Below are positions 1 through 45,424 of a stretch of DNA of 45,424 bases, one piece after another. The translations under genes and the position numbers were made by a program. The stretch's first letter is position 1. Every line of letters begins with the position of its first letter. The notes under the pieces are model-generated. The model was not told the origin of the DNA, ran no database searches, and worked only from the letters and a program-made list of their open reading frames with translations. The DNA comes from a virus. The stretch spans positions 1 to 45,424 of the IMG/VR virus record IMGVR_UViG_3300042154_000979; one strand, given 5' to 3'.

Positions 1-114
1 TACTCGGTTGCGGTGCCACGGAGCCTCCAGGCCCGAACATGATCCGGTAGGGCATCGAGCGCGGCGAGTCGATCTGCCGGTTTCAGCTTGCGCCACGCTC
101 TCTCTGCTCCGGCC
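1..114. repeat. Diverged second version of 45184-45297 (strain variant at contig start)
   Basis: By eye this stretch aligns without gaps to 45184-45297 with about 15 mismatches in 114 bases. Both versions keep the replication-initiator frame open and differ at only two amino acids in it, Glu/Gln and Leu/Thr. The pattern is that of two co-existing phage strains rather than sequencing error. Inference: the contig was entered from a minor strain branch and joins the shared path at base 115. Confidence 0.8.
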
Positions 115-737
115 TTGGCGGTCTTGCGTGGGTACTGGCTCCACCATGCGCCGAAGTCGTCAGGCTCCTGAACACTCACCCTGGCGACTGTGTTCGTTGG
201 GGAGTTTGAGCTTTGCGCGCGAGAGTGTTTTTTCTGTTCTTCTAGTTGTTCTTCTCCTTGTTCTTCTATGTGGACGATTTTCGACCGTTTAGTGGACGAT
301 TTTCGTCCATTCTGTGGACGATTTTCGCCCATTCTCTGCGCCGAGAGTGGGCGATTTTCGACCGTTTCTAGTGGACGATTTTCGTCCATCTCGACATCCT
401 GAGAGCGCTTCGGACGAGCAGCGAGAGCATCCCAAGGTCCGGCCATCAAGCGATACCGGCGACGGTTGCCATCACGGACGATGGTCACGAATCCGCCAGC
501 CTCTAGCTCCTCGATCCACTGCGCCACCACGCCCGAGCATCCGAACTCGCCACGAATGCGACGCATCGAGAGCGTGAACAGGTAAGCGGTCGTGTGCGAG
601 TGCAGCCACCCAAGCAGACACTTAGCGCCGTAGGTCATGTCGAGCGTCCACAGGCCGTGCGGAACCTTCGAGTAGTTGTCGGTTACCCGAGTCTCTCGCT
701 CCCAGCCATCCATAGACGCCGTGATATCATTATTCAT
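1..737 (-). CDS. Replication initiator with in-gene origin, N-terminal part (gene crosses the contig ends)
   Basis: Starts at ATG 737 behind a strong GAGGAGG site and stays open to base 1. Across the contig junction it continues in frame to the stop at 44988, giving about 310 aa. Residues about 17-100 look like the winged-helix N-terminus of phage replisome organisers (KVPHGLW near the start, then GEFGCSG and a basic RDGNRRRYRL wing). The middle, about 115-160, is encoded by DNA iterons and is low complexity with three ENRP motifs. The C-terminal domain (FGAWWSQYPRKTAKAGA) is the conserved tail of phage helicase-loading replication proteins. The probable helicase-loader gene follows with an ATGA overlap. 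Likely job: bind the iterons and recruit the host DnaB-type helicase. The order initiator-with-origin then loader resembles lambda O and P. Sequence similarity to O is not claimed. Confidence 0.8.
   Translation of the reverse strand, partial: MNNDITASMDGWERETRVTDNYSKVPHGLWTLDMTYGAKCLLGWLHSHTTAYLFTLSMRRIRGEFGCSGVVAQWIEELEAGGFVTIVRDGNRRRYRLMAGPWDALAARPKRSQDVEMDENRPLETVENRPLSAQRMGENRPQNGRKSSTKRSKIVHIEEQGEEQLEEQKKHSRAQSSNSPTNTVARVSVQEPDDFGAWWSQYPRKTAKAGAERAWRKLKPADRLAALDALPDHVRAWRLRGTATE
115..241. repeat. 127-bp exact direct repeat, first copy (assembly overlap)
   Basis: Identical to 45298-45424, the last 127 bases of the window. A 127-bp exact end overlap is typical of a de Bruijn assembler run with k=127, so the two copies are probably one locus on a circular or circularly permuted molecule. 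A true biological terminal repeat is less likely because it lies inside the replication-initiator gene. Confidence 0.85.
228..389. other. Probable replication origin: five iterons plus a strand-skewed A/T-richer tract
   Basis: Five copies of a 19-bp unit, consensus GTGGACGATTTTCGTCC, begin at 270, 292, 314, 347 and 371. The spacings are 22, 22, 33 and 24 bp, so mostly whole helical turns. Units at 292 and 371 contain a perfect inverted repeat (TGGACGA, TTT, TCGTCCA), and all share CGATTTTCG. Beside them, 228-269 is a pyrimidine-rich, A/T-richer tract (purine-rich on the coding strand) that could melt. Because 22 is not a multiple of 3 the units are read in different frames, so selection on DNA explains the repeat better than selection on protein. 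Iterons inside the initiator gene next to an A/T-rich tract is the lambda ori plan. Confidence 0.75.
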
Positions 738-26956: not shown

Positions 26957-28690
26957 CTAGTCGAACGCCCCGGAGTCGATGAGCGCCTGTACTCGCGACT
27001 GCTCGGACTGCACGAGGTCGGTGTAATCGACTGGCGTCGGCACCCAGTTCTCGTCGCCTTCGTAGATGTCATCGAAACCGCATCGGCAGTTAGAATGCAC
27101 GAACGCGGGCGACCACAGGAACCCGGTTTCGGATGTGAGGTTGTAGACCCAATGCGAGCCAGACGACACGTTGATCTTGATGACCTTCGTGAGCGATACG
27201 AGCGAGGCGAGAGCGTGCTCGCAATCTCCCATGCTCTCGGCATTGACCGGAGTACCGTCGTGCATCGGTTGGGGGAGTGTGGCCTGCCGATCCGATCCGG
27301 CAGTGAGGCGAACATCCTCCGAATGCGGAACATGAGTGCGGAGCAGCGACGCGAACTCGCCCGACACGCCCACGACGCTCGACGGATTATCAATCCGGTC
27401 ATCGACTCGACCGCTAGAACGCTCGGGGATCACCTGAGCGATTGGGCCTACCGGCGTGCCGTAGTTACTGCCAGCCAGCGCCAGGTTTCGCTCGGTGTCA
27501 AGTTCAGCCACGAGTACGACACCATCGAAGCGTTGACCGAGTTCGATCCGGTCGTGCAGTTGGCCTGCGGTCCCTACAACCTCGATCTTGCCATCGGGTC
27601 TGTCGCCGTGGAAGTTCATGCCTCTCACACTCGCTACGACCGCTCCCGTAGATACTCGACTCGCAGCGTGCAACTCCTCGACTCTGGCTGGTCGGTGCTC
27701 GTTGTCTGGCTGGTTGATGGGCAACCGGATCGAGACAACATCATCGCCGGGCTTGACGAGCTTTGCAGGCTTCCACCCGGTCGAGCTGAGTACCGGATGG
27801 TTCGGGGTAAGGATGAGCGATTCTCCGTCAGCCGTTACGATCTCATACGTTTCGCCATGCCAGCGCATCCGAGCCGACGACAGTAACGCTCCGACCGGGA
27901 GAGCAACCTGCCCCTCTACGATGCAGTTCACCACGTTTGCTGCGCTAGCGCCGTCTGCGTGAGGGAACATCATCTCTTCGCCGTCCACGATAAACGGCTC
28001 GTTGTACGGCACCGTCTGCCCGTCGGCGTCCTGATGGGCGGCTCGTGTTCGTGAGTCCATGACCGTGCTCCACCGCTTCATCTTCGGCCCGTACTCCCCG
28101 AGCGCACGCCCGCCCTCGAAGTGGCCACCGTTGAACGCGGCGACGGTCTCGGTGCGAGCGATGGTGTCCGCTCTGAACTCCGAGAACTGCCGGTAGGTCT
28201 GGATCGACCCTTTCAGTTCCTCCGTGGTCGCTCCGGTGTTGATGGCCTGCACGGTCATCGACCTCACGGTGCGCCAGACGTTATCCCCGACTCCGACGAG
28301 TCGGTTCGTGGCGGTGCGCTGATAGGCCACGGCGGCATCGTTCACGACGGACGCCCACCCGGAGGAGGCGGTAGCAGGCAGAGCAGCGGTAGCGGGAGCC
28401 TGAACCCATGACGACAGACTGCCGTCGAGGAACATGCCGCCGAACATCTCGATGAACTCGTCAGCGAGGAAACCTTCCCAGCGGATCGGGATGGAGTCGA
28501 ATGCCGACAGGTCACCCGATGCGGTTAGCGTCCCGAGAAACGTCTCGTATGCCTCGTCCACGATGCGGACCATCTCCCGGCGTGCGATACGGGCGATGCG
28601 CTCCTCTTGTGCAGCGAGCCAGTCCCGACGGTCAACCGGATCAGCGGGCGGGTGCGAGCGACTCGACCAACGCAGCGGCAAGGTCGCCAT
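26957..28690 (-). CDS. MuF-type head morphogenesis protein containing an intein
   Basis: 577 aa precursor. Residues 1-255 and 535-577 are the MuF-type minor head protein, which binds the portal inside the procapsid: basic ARIARREMVRIVDEAYE near the start, TRTAAHQDADGQTVPYNEPF, and the closing NCRC motif. That motif is split: N255 is followed by an intein (256-534) and resumes as CRCGFDDIYEG at 535. Removing the intein gives a 298-aa protein with an intact ANVVN-CRCGF junction. Start ATG 28690 overlaps the portal gene by 50 bp. An unspliced precursor would lack the conserved motif, so splicing is probably needed for assembly. Confidence 0.9.
   Translation of the reverse strand: MATLPLRWSSRSHPPADPVDRRDWLAAQEERIARIARREMVRIVDEAYETFLGTLTASGDLSAFDSIPIRWEGFLADEFIEMFGGMFLDGSLSSWVQAPATAALPATASSGWASVVNDAAVAYQRTATNRLVGVGDNVWRTVRSMTVQAINTGATTEELKGSIQTYRQFSEFRADTIARTETVAAFNGGHFEGGRALGEYGPKMKRWSTVMDSRTRAAHQDADGQTVPYNEPFIVDGEEMMFPHADGASAANVVNCIVEGQVALPVGALLSSARMRWHGETYEIVTADGESLILTPNHPVLSSTGWKPAKLVKPGDDVVSIRLPINQPDNEHRPARVEELHAASRVSTGAVVASVRGMNFHGDRPDGKIEVVGTAGQLHDRIELGQRFDGVVLVAELDTERNLALAGSNYGTPVGPIAQVIPERSSGRVDDRIDNPSSVVGVSGEFASLLRTHVPHSEDVRLTAGSDRQATLPQPMHDGTPVNAESMGDCEHALASLVSLTKVIKINVSSGSHWVYNLTSETGFLWSPAFVHSNCRCGFDDIYEGDENWVPTPVDYTDLVQSEQSRVQALIDSGAFD
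27089..27925 (-). mobile_element. Intein (279 aa) inserted in the NCRC motif of the MuF protein
   Basis: First residue Cys (CIVEGQVALPVGALL, block A); block B LTPNHPVLSSTGWKPA (residues 39-54) with the TxxH catalytic His; KLVKPGD at 55-61; C-terminal block HWVYNLTSETGFL then SPAFVHSN with the penultimate Ser and final Asn, followed by +1 Cys. These are all expected HINT splicing blocks. The penultimate residue is Ser rather than the usual His, seen in other working inteins. The central 170 residues contain no sense-strand endonuclease motif; the antisense strand does (27152-27886). Confidence 0.9.
27152..27886 (+). CDS. Probable homing endonuclease, antisense inside the intein (HTH plus Vsr-like nuclease)
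   Basis: 244 aa, the only plus-strand gene called. Residues 8-45: LRERYERGESVLAISHALG, then IDRSTVVHRLGECGLPIR, a clear helix-turn-helix. Residues about 120-210: GPYNLDLAIGSVAVEVHASH, then LLDSGWSVLVVWLVDG, the Vsr-like (very-short-patch) nuclease pattern with Asp and Glu at the active site, seen in phage homing enzymes. ATG 27152 has GAGG about 11 nt upstream; ATG 27095 is an alternative also inside the intein. An open frame to 26915 is antisense to extein and promoter and is rejected as start. It covers intein residues 14-258 in register. Open frames in this register are common in GC-rich DNA, so the call rests on the two domains, not on length. Confidence 0.8.
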   Translation: MRARRHVDLDDLRERYERGESVLAISHALGIDRSTVVHRLGECGLPIRSGSEANILRMRNMSAEQRRELARHAHDARRIINPVIDSTARTLGDHLSDWAYRRAVVTASQRQVSLGVKFSHEYDTIEALTEFDPVVQLACGPYNLDLAIGSVAVEVHASHTRYDRSRRYSTRSVQLLDSGWSVLVVWLVDGQPDRDNIIAGLDELCRLPPGRAEYRMVRGKDERFSVSRYDLIRFAMPAHPSRRQ

Positions 28691-30533
28691 AGGTCAGTTC
28701 CTCCTGTGAGGCGAGCAGCAGTCTCGTGAACGAGTCAAGTGTCCGCACGAGTCGGGCAGGGTCCACGCCGGAGCGGCGAGCGATGTCCGGGGCGAGAGAC
28801 CATGCGCCGGTCAGCAGGTCGGTGAGGTCTGCGTGTTCGTGCGCTACGACGCTGAGATGCAGTCGGGCAGGGTCGTCGCATTGGATCGCTGCTGCGCCAC
28901 CCTTCACGCTGCGCCCCGCGGCACCTCGGAGACGGGAACCGGCACGCTCGAGCGCACGGTGCACCAGCAGGTACGACGCTGTGATGACCTCGGGCGGTGC
29001 GCCGGTGACCTCTACGGGCGCTGTCGGCGGTAGGTCTCGGGTGTCCTCTGCTGCCGGTGGAGCGCCTACGACGGGCGCTGCAGTCGGTGCCGGGATCTCT
29101 GCGACCGTGACAGCCTCAGCGAGATATCCGAGTTCGGCGAGCATCGCCGGTGCGAGACCGGGCGCGCTCGTAGCTACTCCGAGCAGGATGCGCTCACGCT
29201 TCTCTTGCGGAGTTGGTGCGTCCTCGATGCTGAGACCTAGCTCGCGGAGCAGAGCCTCACCGGACAACTCCATGCGGTCGTAAGCCTCACGAGCAACGCT
29301 GCTCTTGTCCGGGCGACTGGTGAGGTCGGTGGTGTCGTACCACACCATCACCGACTCGGCCTCTACCTGGGAGTAGCCCTCAGCGAGCAGAGCAGGCAGG
29401 AGGTACCCGACGGTGAGAGCGTTCGTCACGACCTCGGAGAGCGGCTCGATGTGAAGCGTGATCGCCTCCTCCTGCACCTGCCATGCGCCCCAATGGTTCA
29501 TGCCCGATGTTCCGGTGAGCACCTCGGGCGGGATGTCCATGCCGAGAGCCAGACGCTTGATCGCGCCCTCCATGAGGGACAGGACTCGCTCATCGAACGG
29601 AGTAGCGAACGAGATATGCCGGACCTTATCGACGTACTCGCCGGGGATCTTCACGACCAGCGGCACGACGGCTGCGGCAGAGGACCGGTCGGTGATCGGG
29701 ACCGTCATCGCCTCTACGAGCGTGTCCACGAACGTGTCCTCGGGACTCGTGATGTTCTCGTCGTCCGGGTCCACGTTCTGACTGGACTGCGGTCCCTGCC
29801 CCGGAGGAAACACGGCCTCTGACGGGATGGCGAGCAGACCAGCACCAGCGAGACGGGACTGCGCGCTAGCGGTGATGTGCTTCTGTAGCAGGTCGATCTC
29901 GCGGAGGACCGACAGCACGCCGTGAGTGGGAGCGTCTGACTCCCACGAGCGCCGAGGGTGCCTGCGCCAGCACTTCACGACTACCGCTTCGGGCGGGAGC
30001 AGACGCCACGCCCGTTCATCGATCTGTACCTCGATGCCGTCACCGCCGACAGCGGCACGGACCTCCTCGGACGAGTAGACATGCCAATGCGTGAAGCGGT
30101 CTGACAGCGGGTCTTGCGGGTCCGGTTCGATCACGAGCCATGCGAGACCGGCGATGGTGAGGTGCAGACCGAACGCCGACATGATCTGCCCTTGCGTCGA
30201 AGCACCTCCGGCGATGGTCCCGACGATCTCGGCGGCACGAACCTGTACGGGCGTGAACTCCGGTTGAGACGGGTCGATGGGAGTCGGTTCGTCACCGGGC
30301 CGAGCCGGAGCAGCAGCAGCTACGAGGTTGACTCTGGACATGGCGTTGCCGATCCAGTTCGCCCCGAAACGGAGTTCGCCAATGCCGTCGTAGTAATCCC
30401 ACGCTGCTCGTTGCCATGCGTGGACCTTGCCGATGCTCGTTGTCAGAGCGACGTTAGGCGCGGTCATCACCTGCGCGGCAGCTACGAGCGAGTTCCAGCG
30501 TGGAGCGTCACGGCGGCGGGATCGGGCAGACAC
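28641..30533 (-). CDS. Portal protein
   Basis: 630 aa from GTG 30533; the frame is also open to GTG 30551. Landmarks: YYDGIGELRFGANWIGNAMSR near the start, WHVYSSEEVRAA, KCWRRHPRR with PTHGVLSVLREIDLL, DERVLSLMEGAIKRLALGMDIPPEVLTG (catalogued in two pieces), and HWGAWQVQEEAI. These are characteristic of phage portal proteins of the SPP1/HK97 group. The C-terminal 150 residues are Pro/Ala-rich and then helical. It forms the 12-mer DNA entry ring. Overlaps the MuF gene by 50 bp. TACGAT lies 6 nt before GTG 30533; no Shine-Dalgarno. Confidence 0.9.
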   Translation of the reverse strand: MSARSRRRDAPRWNSLVAAAQVMTAPNVALTTSIGKVHAWQRAAWDYYDGIGELRFGANWIGNAMSRVNLVAAAAPARPGDEPTPIDPSQPEFTPVQVRAAEIVGTIAGGASTQGQIMSAFGLHLTIAGLAWLVIEPDPQDPLSDRFTHWHVYSSEEVRAAVGGDGIEVQIDERAWRLLPPEAVVVKCWRRHPRRSWESDAPTHGVLSVLREIDLLQKHITASAQSRLAGAGLLAIPSEAVFPPGQGPQSSQNVDPDDENITSPEDTFVDTLVEAMTVPITDRSSAAAVVPLVVKIPGEYVDKVRHISFATPFDERVLSLMEGAIKRLALGMDIPPEVLTGTSGMNHWGAWQVQEEAITLHIEPLSEVVTNALTVGYLLPALLAEGYSQVEAESVMVWYDTTDLTSRPDKSSVAREAYDRMELSGEALLRELGLSIEDAPTPQEKRERILLGVATSAPGLAPAMLAELGYLAEAVTVAEIPAPTAAPVVGAPPAAEDTRDLPPTAPVEVTGAPPEVITASYLLVHRALERAGSRLRGAAGRSVKGGAAAIQCDDPARLHLSVVAHEHADLTDLLTGAWSLAPDIARRSGVDPARLVRTLDSFTRLLLASQEELTYGDLAAALVESLAPAR

Positions 30534-30539
30534 AGCGCC

Positions 30540-30545
30540 ATCGTA
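30540..30545 (-). promoter_or_regulatory. TANNNT box (TACGAT) 6 nt before the portal start
   Basis: Supports GTG 30533 over GTG 30551 as the start. No -35 seen. Confidence 0.45.
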
Positions 30546-30600
30546 CCCCACGAGCGCCTAGCCTGCCGTAGAGCGCCCGCAGAGCGGCCTGTACGCGCAA

Positions 30601-38466: not shown

Positions 38467-38835
38467 TTAGGCCGAGATAACCGTGATGGTCATTCGCTCG
38501 GGTATGTCTTTCGGTACCTTGTTCGGTGCGTGAAACGTGATCGCTCGCACGATGTCTCCGGTGTCCCCGGACAGGACTCGGGCATCGACTAGCCCATCTA
38601 TCGCTGCTTTGACTGCTCCGACGCACGCCCCGGTGTCAGCGACCGGGTGCCGCATTGACACCTCTATCTCAATCGTCACCGGGCCGGGGAACCGGACTCC
38701 TCGTTGTAGTCCGAGCGCCCAGAACGCTCTCCGCCAGTCCCTCGTTCGCTCTCGGGTCTGCGCCCAATGCGTGCCGCCTCTGCGCTCATCGTTCAGCGTC
38801 CACGGACGGTCAGCGTGAGCGTAGGACTCGATCAC
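38467..38835 (-). CDS. RusA-like Holliday junction resolvase
   Basis: 122 aa from GTG 38835, which overlaps the upstream stop (GTGA); GTG 38862 is possible but less likely. DRPWTLNDERR at the start, IEIEVSMRHPVADTGACVG, then AIDGLVDARVLSGDTGDIV at about 75-95 match the RusA fold with its acidic cluster. The usual DxDN is replaced by DTGAC, so activity is not certain. Resolves or trims branched DNA before packaging. Confidence 0.75.
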   Translation of the reverse strand: MIESYAHADRPWTLNDERRGGTHWAQTRERTRDWRRAFWALGLQRGVRFPGPVTIEIEVSMRHPVADTGACVGAVKAAIDGLVDARVLSGDTGDIVRAITFHAPNKVPKDIPERMTITVISA

Positions 38836-39416
38836 CGGGCCGAGACCCTCTGTAGCGTCCACCCGATATCAGCGAACGATGCCACGAGCGCCGGGACGGT
38901 CTGCGTGGACCAGTCAGCGGTTACGCGTGCCACGATGTCGGCTACCCGGCGCATTTCCTCTACCTTCACGCCAGCAGCGGAGTCGGTGAGCACCTGATGC
39001 CACAGCTTCGTGCCGTCGTCGTGCACGCTGGCGTGGGCGTAGCAGATGACTTGTTGCCGGTTCTCGAGGTCGATGCCGTGCGAGATCAGCACGGTCTTTA
39101 CGAGCGGGTCAAGGTCCGAGATCCGTTGGAGGTCACCGGGGCGAACGTCTGCGATCTCCTCCGGGTCGAACTGCCGACTCCACGCCTCATCGCACCTACC
39201 GGCGATCTGTGCGCCGATAGCGAGCGACATCGAGGCGAGTAGACCGATCACATCATCGTCGGAGGTGCACCGCATCGCCTCTGCGGAGAACGGCACGGCG
39301 ACGAGTCTCTGCCCCGGTGCGTCAGCCCACAGCGTCGTGAGGTGCGTCCCCAACTCCTGATAGGTCTGCACCGCAGCACAGTTATGAGCGACGGTGAGGT
39401 GTTCAAGCTCGTTCAT
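38832..39416 (-). CDS. 194-aa protein of unknown function
   Basis: ATG 39416 inside the end of the WhiB-like gene (14-bp overlap). Mixed helical, acidic; landmarks VPFSAEAMRCTSDDD, EAWSRQFDPEEIADVRPGD and RRVADIVARVTADWS. Contextually an early or recombination gene; family not recognised. Confidence 0.65.
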   Translation of the reverse strand: MNELEHLTVAHNCAAVQTYQELGTHLTTLWADAPGQRLVAVPFSAEAMRCTSDDDVIGLLASMSLAIGAQIAGRCDEAWSRQFDPEEIADVRPGDLQRISDLDPLVKTVLISHGIDLENRQQVICYAHASVHDDGTKLWHQVLTDSAAGVKVEEMRRVADIVARVTADWSTQTVPALVASFADIGWTLQRVSAR

Positions 39417-39855
39417 ATGCCGGGCGTCCTTTGCGGCGGTCGTGGCGTTGGCGTGGTGTCAGTCCTCCGGCGACATGATCGGTTGCCGGGTCTACGTCCT
39501 GCATCGCCCATGTACGGCATTGGACCAGTACCGGGCACCCGGCACAGATCGCTAGTGCCTCTTTCTCGAACGCTCGGTCTGCGTATGAGAGCCGCTGTTT
39601 CTGCGCCTGGTTGCAGTCGTAGAACATGCGTTTGCCGCGGCACGCTGCGTGGTCGATCCAGTCGCCCGGTGGTCGGGGAGGGTCTAGCCTCGTCATGGCT
39701 TCGACCGTCGGCTCGCACGCATATCGTGCCAGCGTATTACGGGTGATGGGACCGTGGAACGCGATGTCGAGCGCGGCCACTACATGCCAGCCCACCGGAC
39801 GGTCTGAAACGTCGATGGCGCGCACGAGATCGGCGTAGGTCTTTACGGTGCTCAC
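39403..39855 (-). CDS. WhiB-like Fe-S transcriptional regulator
   Basis: 150 aa. WIDHAACRGKRMFYDCN, then CAGCPVLVQCRTWAM gives the four Cys of a [4Fe-4S] cluster (C, CxxC, C), and VAGGLTPRQRHDRR is the Gly-rich turn and basic tail of WhiB proteins. A roughly 60-residue N-terminal extension with a helix-turn-like part (ITRNTLARYACEPTVEAM) is unusual. WhiB proteins act with the host sigma factor; phage versions can repress host whiB genes. Specific to Actinobacteria. ATGA overlap with the upstream gene. Confidence 0.9.
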   Translation of the reverse strand: MSTVKTYADLVRAIDVSDRPVGWHVVAALDIAFHGPITRNTLARYACEPTVEAMTRLDPPRPPGDWIDHAACRGKRMFYDCNQAQKQRLSYADRAFEKEALAICAGCPVLVQCRTWAMQDVDPATDHVAGGLTPRQRHDRRKGRPAYERA

Positions 39856-42006: not shown

Positions 42007-42320
42007 GCGCTGGCCTTCAGCAGCAGACCGAGAGCGAGTGACTCGGTGATGTGCTCATGGACCCAGGAGTGATGCGCCCGGCAGAGGCTCACGAGGTTCT
42101 CCAGCGTGTCGGGTCCACCCTGTGAGCGCCGACGGATGTGGTGAGGGTCGATCCGTCCGAAGCAGTCCACTTGCGGGATAGTTCGTCGTGCGACGCAGCC
42201 ACCATCACGGCGAGTCACGGCGAGGTAGACATCTGCCGGTACCGCCTTGCTGCCGTGCTTGCGCTTGATCGGCCCTGAGCGTTGCAGCGGAGTCTTGCGG
42301 GCGAGCGGTGAACGCTTCAC
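42003..42320 (-). CDS. HNH endonuclease, small
   Basis: 105 aa from GTG 42320, overlapping the ERF stop (GTGA). Basic start KRSPLARKTPLQRSG, then DPHHIRRRSQGGPDTLENL and LCRAHHSWVHEH, the HNH core. Coupling to ERF suggests a recombination or genome-processing role. Confidence 0.85.
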   Translation of the reverse strand: MKRSPLARKTPLQRSGPIKRKHGSKAVPADVYLAVTRRDGGCVARRTIPQVDCFGRIDPHHIRRRSQGGPDTLENLVSLCRAHHSWVHEHITESLALGLLLKASA

Positions 42321-42967
42321 TCGGCCTCCTCTGCCAGTTCGATCTGCTCGAGGACCAGCGCCAGAGCGGCAACGTGCAGCGTTGGCTCCAGGTCGGTCAG
42401 AGTGCACCCGAACTCGGCCATGAACGCTGTCTTGATCGTTGCGGCGACTGCTGCCGGGATCTGCGCCAGACGGCGGCGAATCTCGGCCTCCTGCTCCGTT
42501 CTCGCTTCCGGCACCGGGCGGGCCTCGGAACGCACTACGGGCGTGTTGCTGCGCTCTGTGCGAGGTGATGCGCTAGCGCCGTCGTCGTCGTCGGTGGCGA
42601 GACCGAGGAACGCCATCAGCGCATAGCGGCGGGCGTAGGTGATGCTCGACCCGGTGGCCTGTGCTGTCTTGCCGATGGGCATGCGTACCGGTGTCGTGGT
42701 GACCCATTGCCCGGACGAGTGCAGCATCGTCGTGGTGACGAGAACGTCCGACTCCGTGCAGTCGATGGACTGCGTGACGAGTAGACCGTGACCGGACAGG
42801 ATCGGGCGTGCCATCGACAGCACATCACCGAGATCGGCGTAGGTGTATTTGATCGGTCCGGCGTTCACCTTGCGAGTACGCGGCACCTCGTCCATCTCGC
42901 CTGCTGCTCGTGTCCATGCGGCGGCGAGTTCGGTGATGGTCTCCGAGCGGTCGGTCCATGCGGTCAT
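42317..42967 (-). CDS. ERF-family single-strand annealing protein
   Basis: 216 aa. IKYTYADLGDVLSMARPIL, then TTMLHSSGQWVTT, IGKTAQATGSSITYARRYAL and MAFLGLATDDDDGA are ERF signatures. Anneals single strands for recombination; no 5'-3' exonuclease partner is seen. Overlaps the next upstream gene by 4 bp. Confidence 0.9.
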   Translation of the reverse strand: MTAWTDRSETITELAAAWTRAAGEMDEVPRTRKVNAGPIKYTYADLGDVLSMARPILSGHGLLVTQSIDCTESDVLVTTTMLHSSGQWVTTTPVRMPIGKTAQATGSSITYARRYALMAFLGLATDDDDGASASPRTERSNTPVVRSEARPVPEARTEQEAEIRRRLAQIPAAVAATIKTAFMAEFGCTLTDLEPTLHVAALALVLEQIELAEEAE

Positions 42968-44567: not shown

Positions 44568-44613
44568 AGTATAACGTACTTTGCAGCGGTATCAACACTC
44601 GAAGCAGATATTT
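44568..44613 (-). promoter_or_regulatory. Leaderless promoter cassette, ATG 44561
   Basis: TATACT, 6 nt, ATG; -35 TTGATA at 16 bp; box AAATATCT (44613-44606). Confidence 0.85.
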
Positions 44614-44622
44614 CTCGACAGG

Positions 44623-44991
44623 TCATTTGATGCCGCTCATCGTGGCAAGAAAGTGCGAGCGGTCAGGCTCCTTGCCGAGACGCCGAGCCTCAGCGCAATA
44701 GCCATCCCACGCCAGTTTCATCGCCCGTTCTCTCGGAGTCGGCACGATGTCGAGCTTCGGTGGCGGTGGACGACGGGCTAGTTCACGGCGGTACGCAGCG
44801 AGGAACTCGGCGATAGGCGGGTGACCGGGTCTGGTCCATGTTCGGATCAGACCCATCACGGCATCCCTTGCGGCAGGGATGTCATCGAGACGGCCCATCT
44901 CTGCGACCCATAGCTGCGCCTGATGGTCATCCCAGCCGGTAGTACCGGCGACCAGCAGACCGACGAGCTGCGTTGCTTCTGACTCGATCAC
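44623..44991 (-). CDS. Probable helicase loader (G39P-like)
   Basis: 122 aa, ATGA overlap with the initiator stop. The N-terminal 65 residues (ATQLVGLLVAGTTGWDDHQA, then WVAEMGRLDDIPAARDAV, and HPPIAEFLAAYR) fit the helical fold of phage loader proteins that inhibit and place the replicative helicase. The C-terminal half is a basic Pro-linked tail. Function inferred from position and fold. Confidence 0.65.
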   Translation of the reverse strand: MIESEATQLVGLLVAGTTGWDDHQAQLWVAEMGRLDDIPAARDAVMGLIRTWTRPGHPPIAEFLAAYRRELARRPPPPKLDIVPTPRERAMKLAWDGYCAEARRLGKEPDRSHFLATMSGIK

Positions 44992-45424
44992 TCGTCGCCC
45001 CAGTCGTCATGCTCGTGGTCGTAGGCGAGTCCCGGTAGAGGTGCGCCGATGGTCTCTCGGAGTCGTGCAGCAGCGAAACGATCTTCGAGCGCCGCCATCA
45101 CCGGATTGACCTTGCGCCCCGAGGTCAATGTCAGGTCATCCTCCCATCGTCGCCCGTTGAGCCACGTTGCCGGGTGAGGGACGTACTCTGTTGCGGTGCC
45201 CCGGAGCCTCCACGCCCGGACATGATCCGGCAGGGCATCGAGTGCGGCGGTTCGGTCTGCTGGTTTCAGTTTGCGCCACGCTCTCTGTGCACCAGCTTTG
45301 GCGGTCTTGCGTGGGTACTGGCTCCACCATGCGCCGAAGTCGTCAGGCTCCTGAACACTCACCCTGGCGACTGTGTTCGTTGGGGAGTTTGAGCTTTGCG
45401 CGCGAGAGTGTTTTTTCTGTTCTT
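44988..45424 (-). CDS. Replication initiator, C-terminal part (continues at 1-737)
   Basis: Open from the window end to the stop at 44988. It includes the C-terminal domain (FGAWWSQYPRKTAKAGA, then YVPHPATWLNGRRWEDD). A GTG at 45362 could look like a start, but the frame is continuous with the N-terminal half across the contig junction. Compared with the variant at 1-114 it has Gln for Glu and Thr for Leu. Confidence 0.8.
   Translation of the reverse strand, partial: EQKKHSRAQSSNSPTNTVARVSVQEPDDFGAWWSQYPRKTAKAGAQRAWRKLKPADRTAALDALPDHVRAWRLRGTATEYVPHPATWLNGRRWEDDLTLTSGRKVNPVMAALEDRFAAARLRETIGAPLPGLAYDHEHDDWGDE
45298..45424. repeat. 127-bp exact direct repeat, second copy (assembly overlap)
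   Basis: Same 127 bases as 115-241. Joining the two gives a circle of about 45,183 bp and restores one uninterrupted replication-initiator gene across the junction. Confidence 0.85.

Follow-up and report, generated by a model that had tools for sequence, protein, structure and literature searches.

A probable replication origin within the initiator gene of an uncultured actinobacterial phage

Introduction

The locus considered here raises the question of whether repeats that lie well inside a protein-coding gene are there for the protein or as the place where replication of the phage begins. The window analysed is a whole virus record of 45,424 bp, IMGVR_UViG_3300042154_000979. Origins inside initiator genes are established for lambda (PMC7466680) and for oriL of SPP1, which has direct repeats and an AT-rich DNA unwinding element (PMC6316719), and genetics supports them for 80alpha (PMC5499656) and the plasmid pSK41 (PMC5703833). 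With such origins already known, that of the window would be a further case of a known design. For mycobacteriophage RepA, the origin has been suspected to be inside or next to repA with its repeats not identified (PMC7157519), and a precise candidate origin for an uncultured actinophage is of value against that background. The reading favoured here, with a probability of about 0.86, is that the array of five dyads and the tract beside it (Table 1) are the replication origin of the phage, placed inside the gene that codes for its initiator.

Table 1. Features of the initiator locus and of the map closure (positions in the 45,424 bp window)
Feature	Position	Strand	Remarks
Replication initiator gene, residues 1-245 of 310	1..737	-	ATG at 737; phrog_270
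Rest of initiator gene, residues 246-310 and stop	44988..45183	-	same frame through the exact 127-bp end overlap
Predicted winged-helix DNA-binding domain, residues about 22-98	444..674	-	AlphaFold2 model and fold matches
Iteron nearest the winged-helix domain	372..388	-	perfect 7-bp dyad; read DENRPL
Iteron	348..364	-	read VENRPL
Iteron	315..331	-	read GENRPQ
Iteron	293..309	-	perfect 7-bp dyad; read NGRKSST (shifted frame)
Iteron nearest the AT-rich tract	271..287	-	read KRSKIVH (third frame)
Putative DNA unwinding element	226..270	-	three 12-bp AGAAGAACA-type repeats and A tract; GC minimum of the contig
C-terminal domain, from residue 193 (WWSQYPRK ... YVPHPATWLN)	1..161, continued 45183-44988	-	common to many phage replication proteins
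122-aa gene	44623..44991	-	4-nt overlap (GTGA) with the initiator stop
Repeat of 1-241 at 94% identity	45184..45424		circular-map assembly closure with strain variation

The initiator gene and its protein

Though the initial annotation was right that a replication gene carries the repeats, the gene as seen in the window is cut by its edge. The ends of the contig overlap by 241 bp at 94% identity, the last 127 bp being exact, and with positions 1-241 recurring at the far end the map closes on itself and its ends are arbitrary. Because closure is on the exact 127-bp overlap (we infer that 127 is a k-mer length common among assemblers), the gene runs off position 1 and resumes near the other end. 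In the 114 bp beyond the exact overlap there are 15 differences, 12 of them synonymous and three in two changed codons (E/Q and L/T). Judged from these end sequences, two strains that occur together account for the differences, and the map is either circular or permuted.

The wrapped protein of 310 aa matches phrog_270, ‘replication initiation protein’, with an E value of 2e-24 (residues 19-270 on positions 29-257 of the 383 of the profile), and also phrogs 9327 and 9474 (primosomal, replication initiation). A Pfam search with it gave nothing significant, with no match to Phage_rep_O (PF04492) at E 1 and none to RepA_N (PF06970), and comparison by sequence to solved structures gave no significant match. 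An AlphaFold2 model of residues 1-115, made from a 14-row alignment of winged-helix sequences that were hand-picked and hand-trimmed, has a mean pLDDT of 76.8 and a winged-helix layout, with helices at 36-48, 58-65 and 71-80 and strands at 84-89 and 92-97; a single-sequence fold of the 245-aa piece was unusable (pLDDT 43). Together with the phrog_270 match, the model supports the description of the product as a winged-helix replication protein.

Foldseek alone found no PDB match to the model below 1e-3. When PDB chains were re-ranked, the top rows included 4pql_A (Z 9.3, with an rmsd of 2.5 over 90 residues, unrelated rows being within 1 Z), 5kbj_H (9.1) and 4pt7_B (8.8). The PDB titles of these three entries refer to the N-terminal domain of a DNA-binding protein, a Rep-DNA complex and an initiator, and we take all three to be pSK41-type Rep proteins. 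A 2014 structural study, as it is cited in PMC5703833, agrees with that assignment. Transcription regulators of SarX type also score within 1 Z of the Rep structures, and so the winged-helix fold is supported and the family is not. The C-terminal domain is probably the partner-binding end, and in distant relatives which have this common domain, short repeats in the linker are also often present.

Support for an actinobacterial host comes from a WhiB-like transcription factor encoded at 39403-39855 (minus strand; PF02467 with E 6e-11, and phrog_472), in agreement with the earlier recognition of the phage as WhiB-bearing. Among 396 actinobacterial genomes there was one match to the C-terminal part of the initiator and there were two weak ones to the 122-aa gene, and a DNA search of isolated phages with the first 3 kb of the contig gave no match.

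The iteron array

The iterons start near residue 117 of the initiator, in the linker that follows the winged helix. On the coding (minus) strand the unit is GGNCGAAAATCGNCC, and five units lie within 271-388 at spacings of 22, 22, 33 and 24 bp. The initial annotation had put five 19-bp iterons at 270, 292, 314, 347 and 371, and repeats are indeed found there. Exact GGNCGAAAAWCGNCC occurs five times in the 45,424 bp, always in the array, and in none of 200 dinucleotide-preserving shuffles; a scan of the contig at up to one mismatch found no copy outside the array. Dispersed stoperators are ruled out by this absence of other copies in the contig.

The two dyads that had been noted as perfect over 7 bp are so (TGGACGA-TTT-TCGTCCA, or TGGACGA-AAA-TCGTCCA on the coding strand), and the geometry of the iteron is that of a 15-bp dyad arranged 5-5-5, GGACG-AAAAT-CGTCC.

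Might the repeats exist for the protein, as a repetitive disordered linker with a motif such as ENRP? Three of the five units do encode the ENRP peptide in one common frame, as first described, and in-frame repeats with the same DNA core occur in other genes (tail-fibre and hexapeptide proteins). Against this, the other two units are read in the two remaining frames, and dyad symmetry is meaningless at the protein level. A protein repeat is made very improbable by these features and by the homologue considered below.

We likewise give very little weight to the array as a site for partition or another maintenance function, such as a centromere or a packaging signal. This alternative draws on the repeated sites carried by actinophages with parABS loci (PMC7157519), but a search of the contig for a ParA-type ATPase found none and the iterons are confined to the initiator gene.

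The AT-rich tract

Read in the coding direction, the last iteron is followed directly on its 3′ side by CATAGAAGAACAAGGAGAAGAACAACTAGAAGAACAGAAAAAACA, made up of three 12-bp repeats with a run of A. Whether GC is taken over 40, 60, 100 or 150 bp, the minimum of the whole contig is in the segment beside the iterons; GC at 226-265 is 0.325, the minimum for 40 bp, where the contig mean is 0.622 (sd 0.061). Over 40 bp, the pyrimidine fraction of the contig peaks (0.875) in the segment that starts at 228, in keeping with the pyrimidine-skewed, A/T-richer tract that had been described beside the iterons. Cumulative GC skew, put forward earlier as a check, has no turning point at the array and was uninformative.

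The location of the tract bears on a further alternative, that the dyads are operators bound by the initiator or a phage repressor for control of transcription, with replication starting elsewhere. In its favour, many transcription regulators have winged-helix domains with this fold, and certain plasmid initiators use their iterons for autoregulation. The repeats are, however, about 350 bp into the gene rather than at a promoter, and a promoter-like site was not seen in their vicinity; the dyads also adjoin the AT minimum of the contig, and the layout matches that of known in-gene origins. Operators are accordingly considered unlikely, if somewhat less so than a protein repeat or a partition site, and an origin is the preferred explanation.

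Conservation in a close homologue

Conservation of the repeats in homologous genes was a check set beforehand. One close relative was found, L003 from IMG/VR, 81% identical over the aligned protein columns and itself matching phrog_270 (E 2e-26); searches for relatives with the N-terminal domain and with the 122-aa gene had matches only in its contig. L003 keeps the DNA unit while the peptide changes. Four diverged iterons, their arms altered (mainly GGTCGAAAAACGACC), are retained at spacings of 25, 22 and 22, and occupy all three frames (RSKNDHH, TVENRPL, GRKTSDK and RSKNDHI). Taken with the two units of the window that are out of frame, this upholds the contention that the DNA and not the peptide is what is conserved, and it counts against a protein repeat, as does the difference in linker length between the two initiators.

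The A-rich tract is unchanged in L003, and the longest exact DNA match between the two genes, 78 bp, comprises the edge of the last iteron and this tract. Among degenerate codons for the same residue, 32 of 36 are identical to those of L003 in residues 157-192, compared with 35/66 in the N-terminal part and 69/97 in the C-terminal part.

Comparison with known systems

The lambda-type plan discerned in the initial annotation holds up: a protein of an initiator family, a modelled winged helix, linker iterons in several frames, an AT tract 3′ of them and a following gene that overlaps by 4 nt are all present. In the lambda record, gene O has four annotated iterons in three frames with the geometry CCCTC-AAAAC-GAGGG, and immediately after them comes the 40-bp GC minimum of the 1.8-kb stretch compared. 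Winged helix, iterons, A-rich AT minimum, C-terminus and overlapping next gene come in the same order in O/P and in the window. In both, the iterons start near residue 117 and form 15-bp 5-5-5 dyads in several frames, and the overlap with the next gene is 4 nt. The differences are that the window gene has five units rather than four, with unlike arms, and no Phage_rep_O match, and that the 122-aa product of its next gene, for which no relationship to P was found, is about half the length of P (233 aa).

pSK41 Rep has an N-terminal winged helix and a separate C-terminal domain, and Rep structures rank near the top of the fold neighbours of the window protein. Its four Rep boxes are central in rep, where ori encodes the central linker (PMC5703833). 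It is the protein of a staphylococcal plasmid, however, and the window protein is without a PF06970 match. SPP1 G38P with oriL (loader G39P) and 80alpha ORF20/ORF21 also have the origin in the gene of the replisome organizer. SPP1 (module G38P/G39P/G40P) differs in having another origin, oriR, together with a DnaB-type helicase of its own, and 80alpha in having a DnaC-type loader; none of these was found in the window contig.

RepO of Pontimonas phage phiPsal1, which has an actinobacterial host, is related to the window initiator along most of its length (hhalign probability 98%, residues 14-265). It too has in-gene repeats and then an AT minimum, and an overlapping downstream gene of 110 aa (‘replisome organizer’), whose product compared to Inhibitor_G39P gives only E 0.23. 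The repeats of phiPsal1 differ, being TTCCACTGTGGA-type units every 15 bp and in frame. The AT minimum is placed likewise after the iterons in lambda, L003 and phiPsal1. The uncultured phage, whose host is probably an actinobacterium, seems to be a well-supported further example of the known lambda-like design, and not a new kind of system.

Proposed mechanism

In the course of initiation as envisaged, the N-terminal winged helix would bind the five 15-bp dyads, probably as one dimer per dyad. The bound array would then strain and melt the A-rich tract just 3′, and the C-terminal domain would bring the host replicative helicase to the melted DNA, with or without the 122-aa protein. The iteron DNA would double as a tolerant protein linker, on account of which its units could sit in any reading frame.

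Recruitment of the helicase is the weakest step, as the 122-aa protein is without a family match and the contig is without a match to DnaB or IstB/DnaC. The downstream gene had been described as loader-like, a description that its product does not sustain on homology: there is no Pfam or PHROG family match, nothing significant in PDB, and no significant similarity to the downstream protein of phiPsal1. By position and size it is a candidate helicase loader. Searches of the contig, a record that may be slightly incomplete, found no match to the DnaB family (DnaB_C) or to the IstB/DnaC family.

Dyad arrays in other viral contigs

IMG/VR was scanned for three nearby copies of CGAAAAWCG, ignoring gene function. 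This yielded 13 distinct arrays in ORFs of at least 150 aa with units in more than one frame, and for 10 of these 13 there is a match of the ORF to a replication initiator or DnaD-like family (L025, L034, L035, L038, L053-L057 and L070, L035 being the contig of L003). Of the other three, one has no match (L043), one was outside the family search (L071), and in the third the array precedes an antirepressor (L074). As the frame and length classes of arrays were drawn after the dyad arms had been seen once, the association of arrays with initiators is strong but is not a blind test.

In the frame-varying in-gene arrays, pairing of the arms at the three positions outside CG is 0.76, 0.79 and 0.71, and further out it falls to 0.46, 0.25 and 0.37, which points to a 15-bp dyad whose arms are variable but paired. 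A set of 19 array-bearing genes, those of the window and L003 included, gave matches to HTH_36 (nine), RepA_N (one), Phage_rep_O (one) and the DnaD-like DnaD_N (one). On our own reading, the genes directly downstream of array-bearing genes appear to include ones for AAA+ proteins (L025, L057 and L076) and a DnaB-type protein (L079).

Arrays in a single frame are often protein repeats of tail-fibre or hexapeptide type. The first core scan also matched arrays outside initiator genes (L024/L026, L029/L030 and L032), treated as other or chance occurrences, and a core scan of genome contigs, in which many among the matches listed are simple tandem repeats, was left out of the counts. Several viral contigs, L039, L049, L051, L052, L059 and L065, a number of them over 80 kb, have CACGAAAATCGTG dyad arrays outside long ORFs; these share the dyad core and may be origins that lie in non-coding DNA.

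A tentative proposal, which we think has a lesser chance of being right than wrong, is that one syntax, N3-CG-AAAA(A/T)-CG-N3, with arms variable but paired, situated just after the winged helix and free of frame, is used by many winged-helix initiators of phages, in several initiator families. If so, the specificity of an initiator would be readable from the gene that encodes it, and a simple scan could locate origins in uncultured phages. With the site in the gene of the protein that binds it, each such gene would carry a putative matched protein-site pair, and a dyad geometry that recurs from one initiator family to the next would make it possible to predict origins from sequence. While in-gene origins are well known, a dyad syntax common to initiator families may be less appreciated; no paper on it was found in the literature searched, in searches not aimed at the motif itself.

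Other features of the contig

All the genes that follow are on the minus strand. An Erf-type single-strand annealing protein is encoded at 42317-42967 (PF04404, E 6.5e-25) and a RusA-like resolvase at 38467-38862 (phrog_34, E 3.4e-5), placing recombination genes within a few kb of the initiator on the closed map. A large protein at 22199-24103 matches the portal family phrog_859 (residues 102-627) as well as head maturation protease and structural families, and may be a fusion or reflect a mis-named family; a second large protein, at 28641-30551, matches the portal family phrog_776.

There are also 12 similar promoter-like elements on the minus strand, at 44573, 44072, 36892, 32378, 31959, 31560, 30905, 26907, 25544, 24866, 2483 and 2263; TATACT has 0 occurrences on the plus strand. 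The elements mostly have GTTG upstream and GGT or CGT before TATACT, and each is 6-8 nts before ATGACCACG, from which the proteins start with MTT and the genes would be leaderless. From their sequences, the 12 look like one family of promoters that serves small genes throughout the phage.
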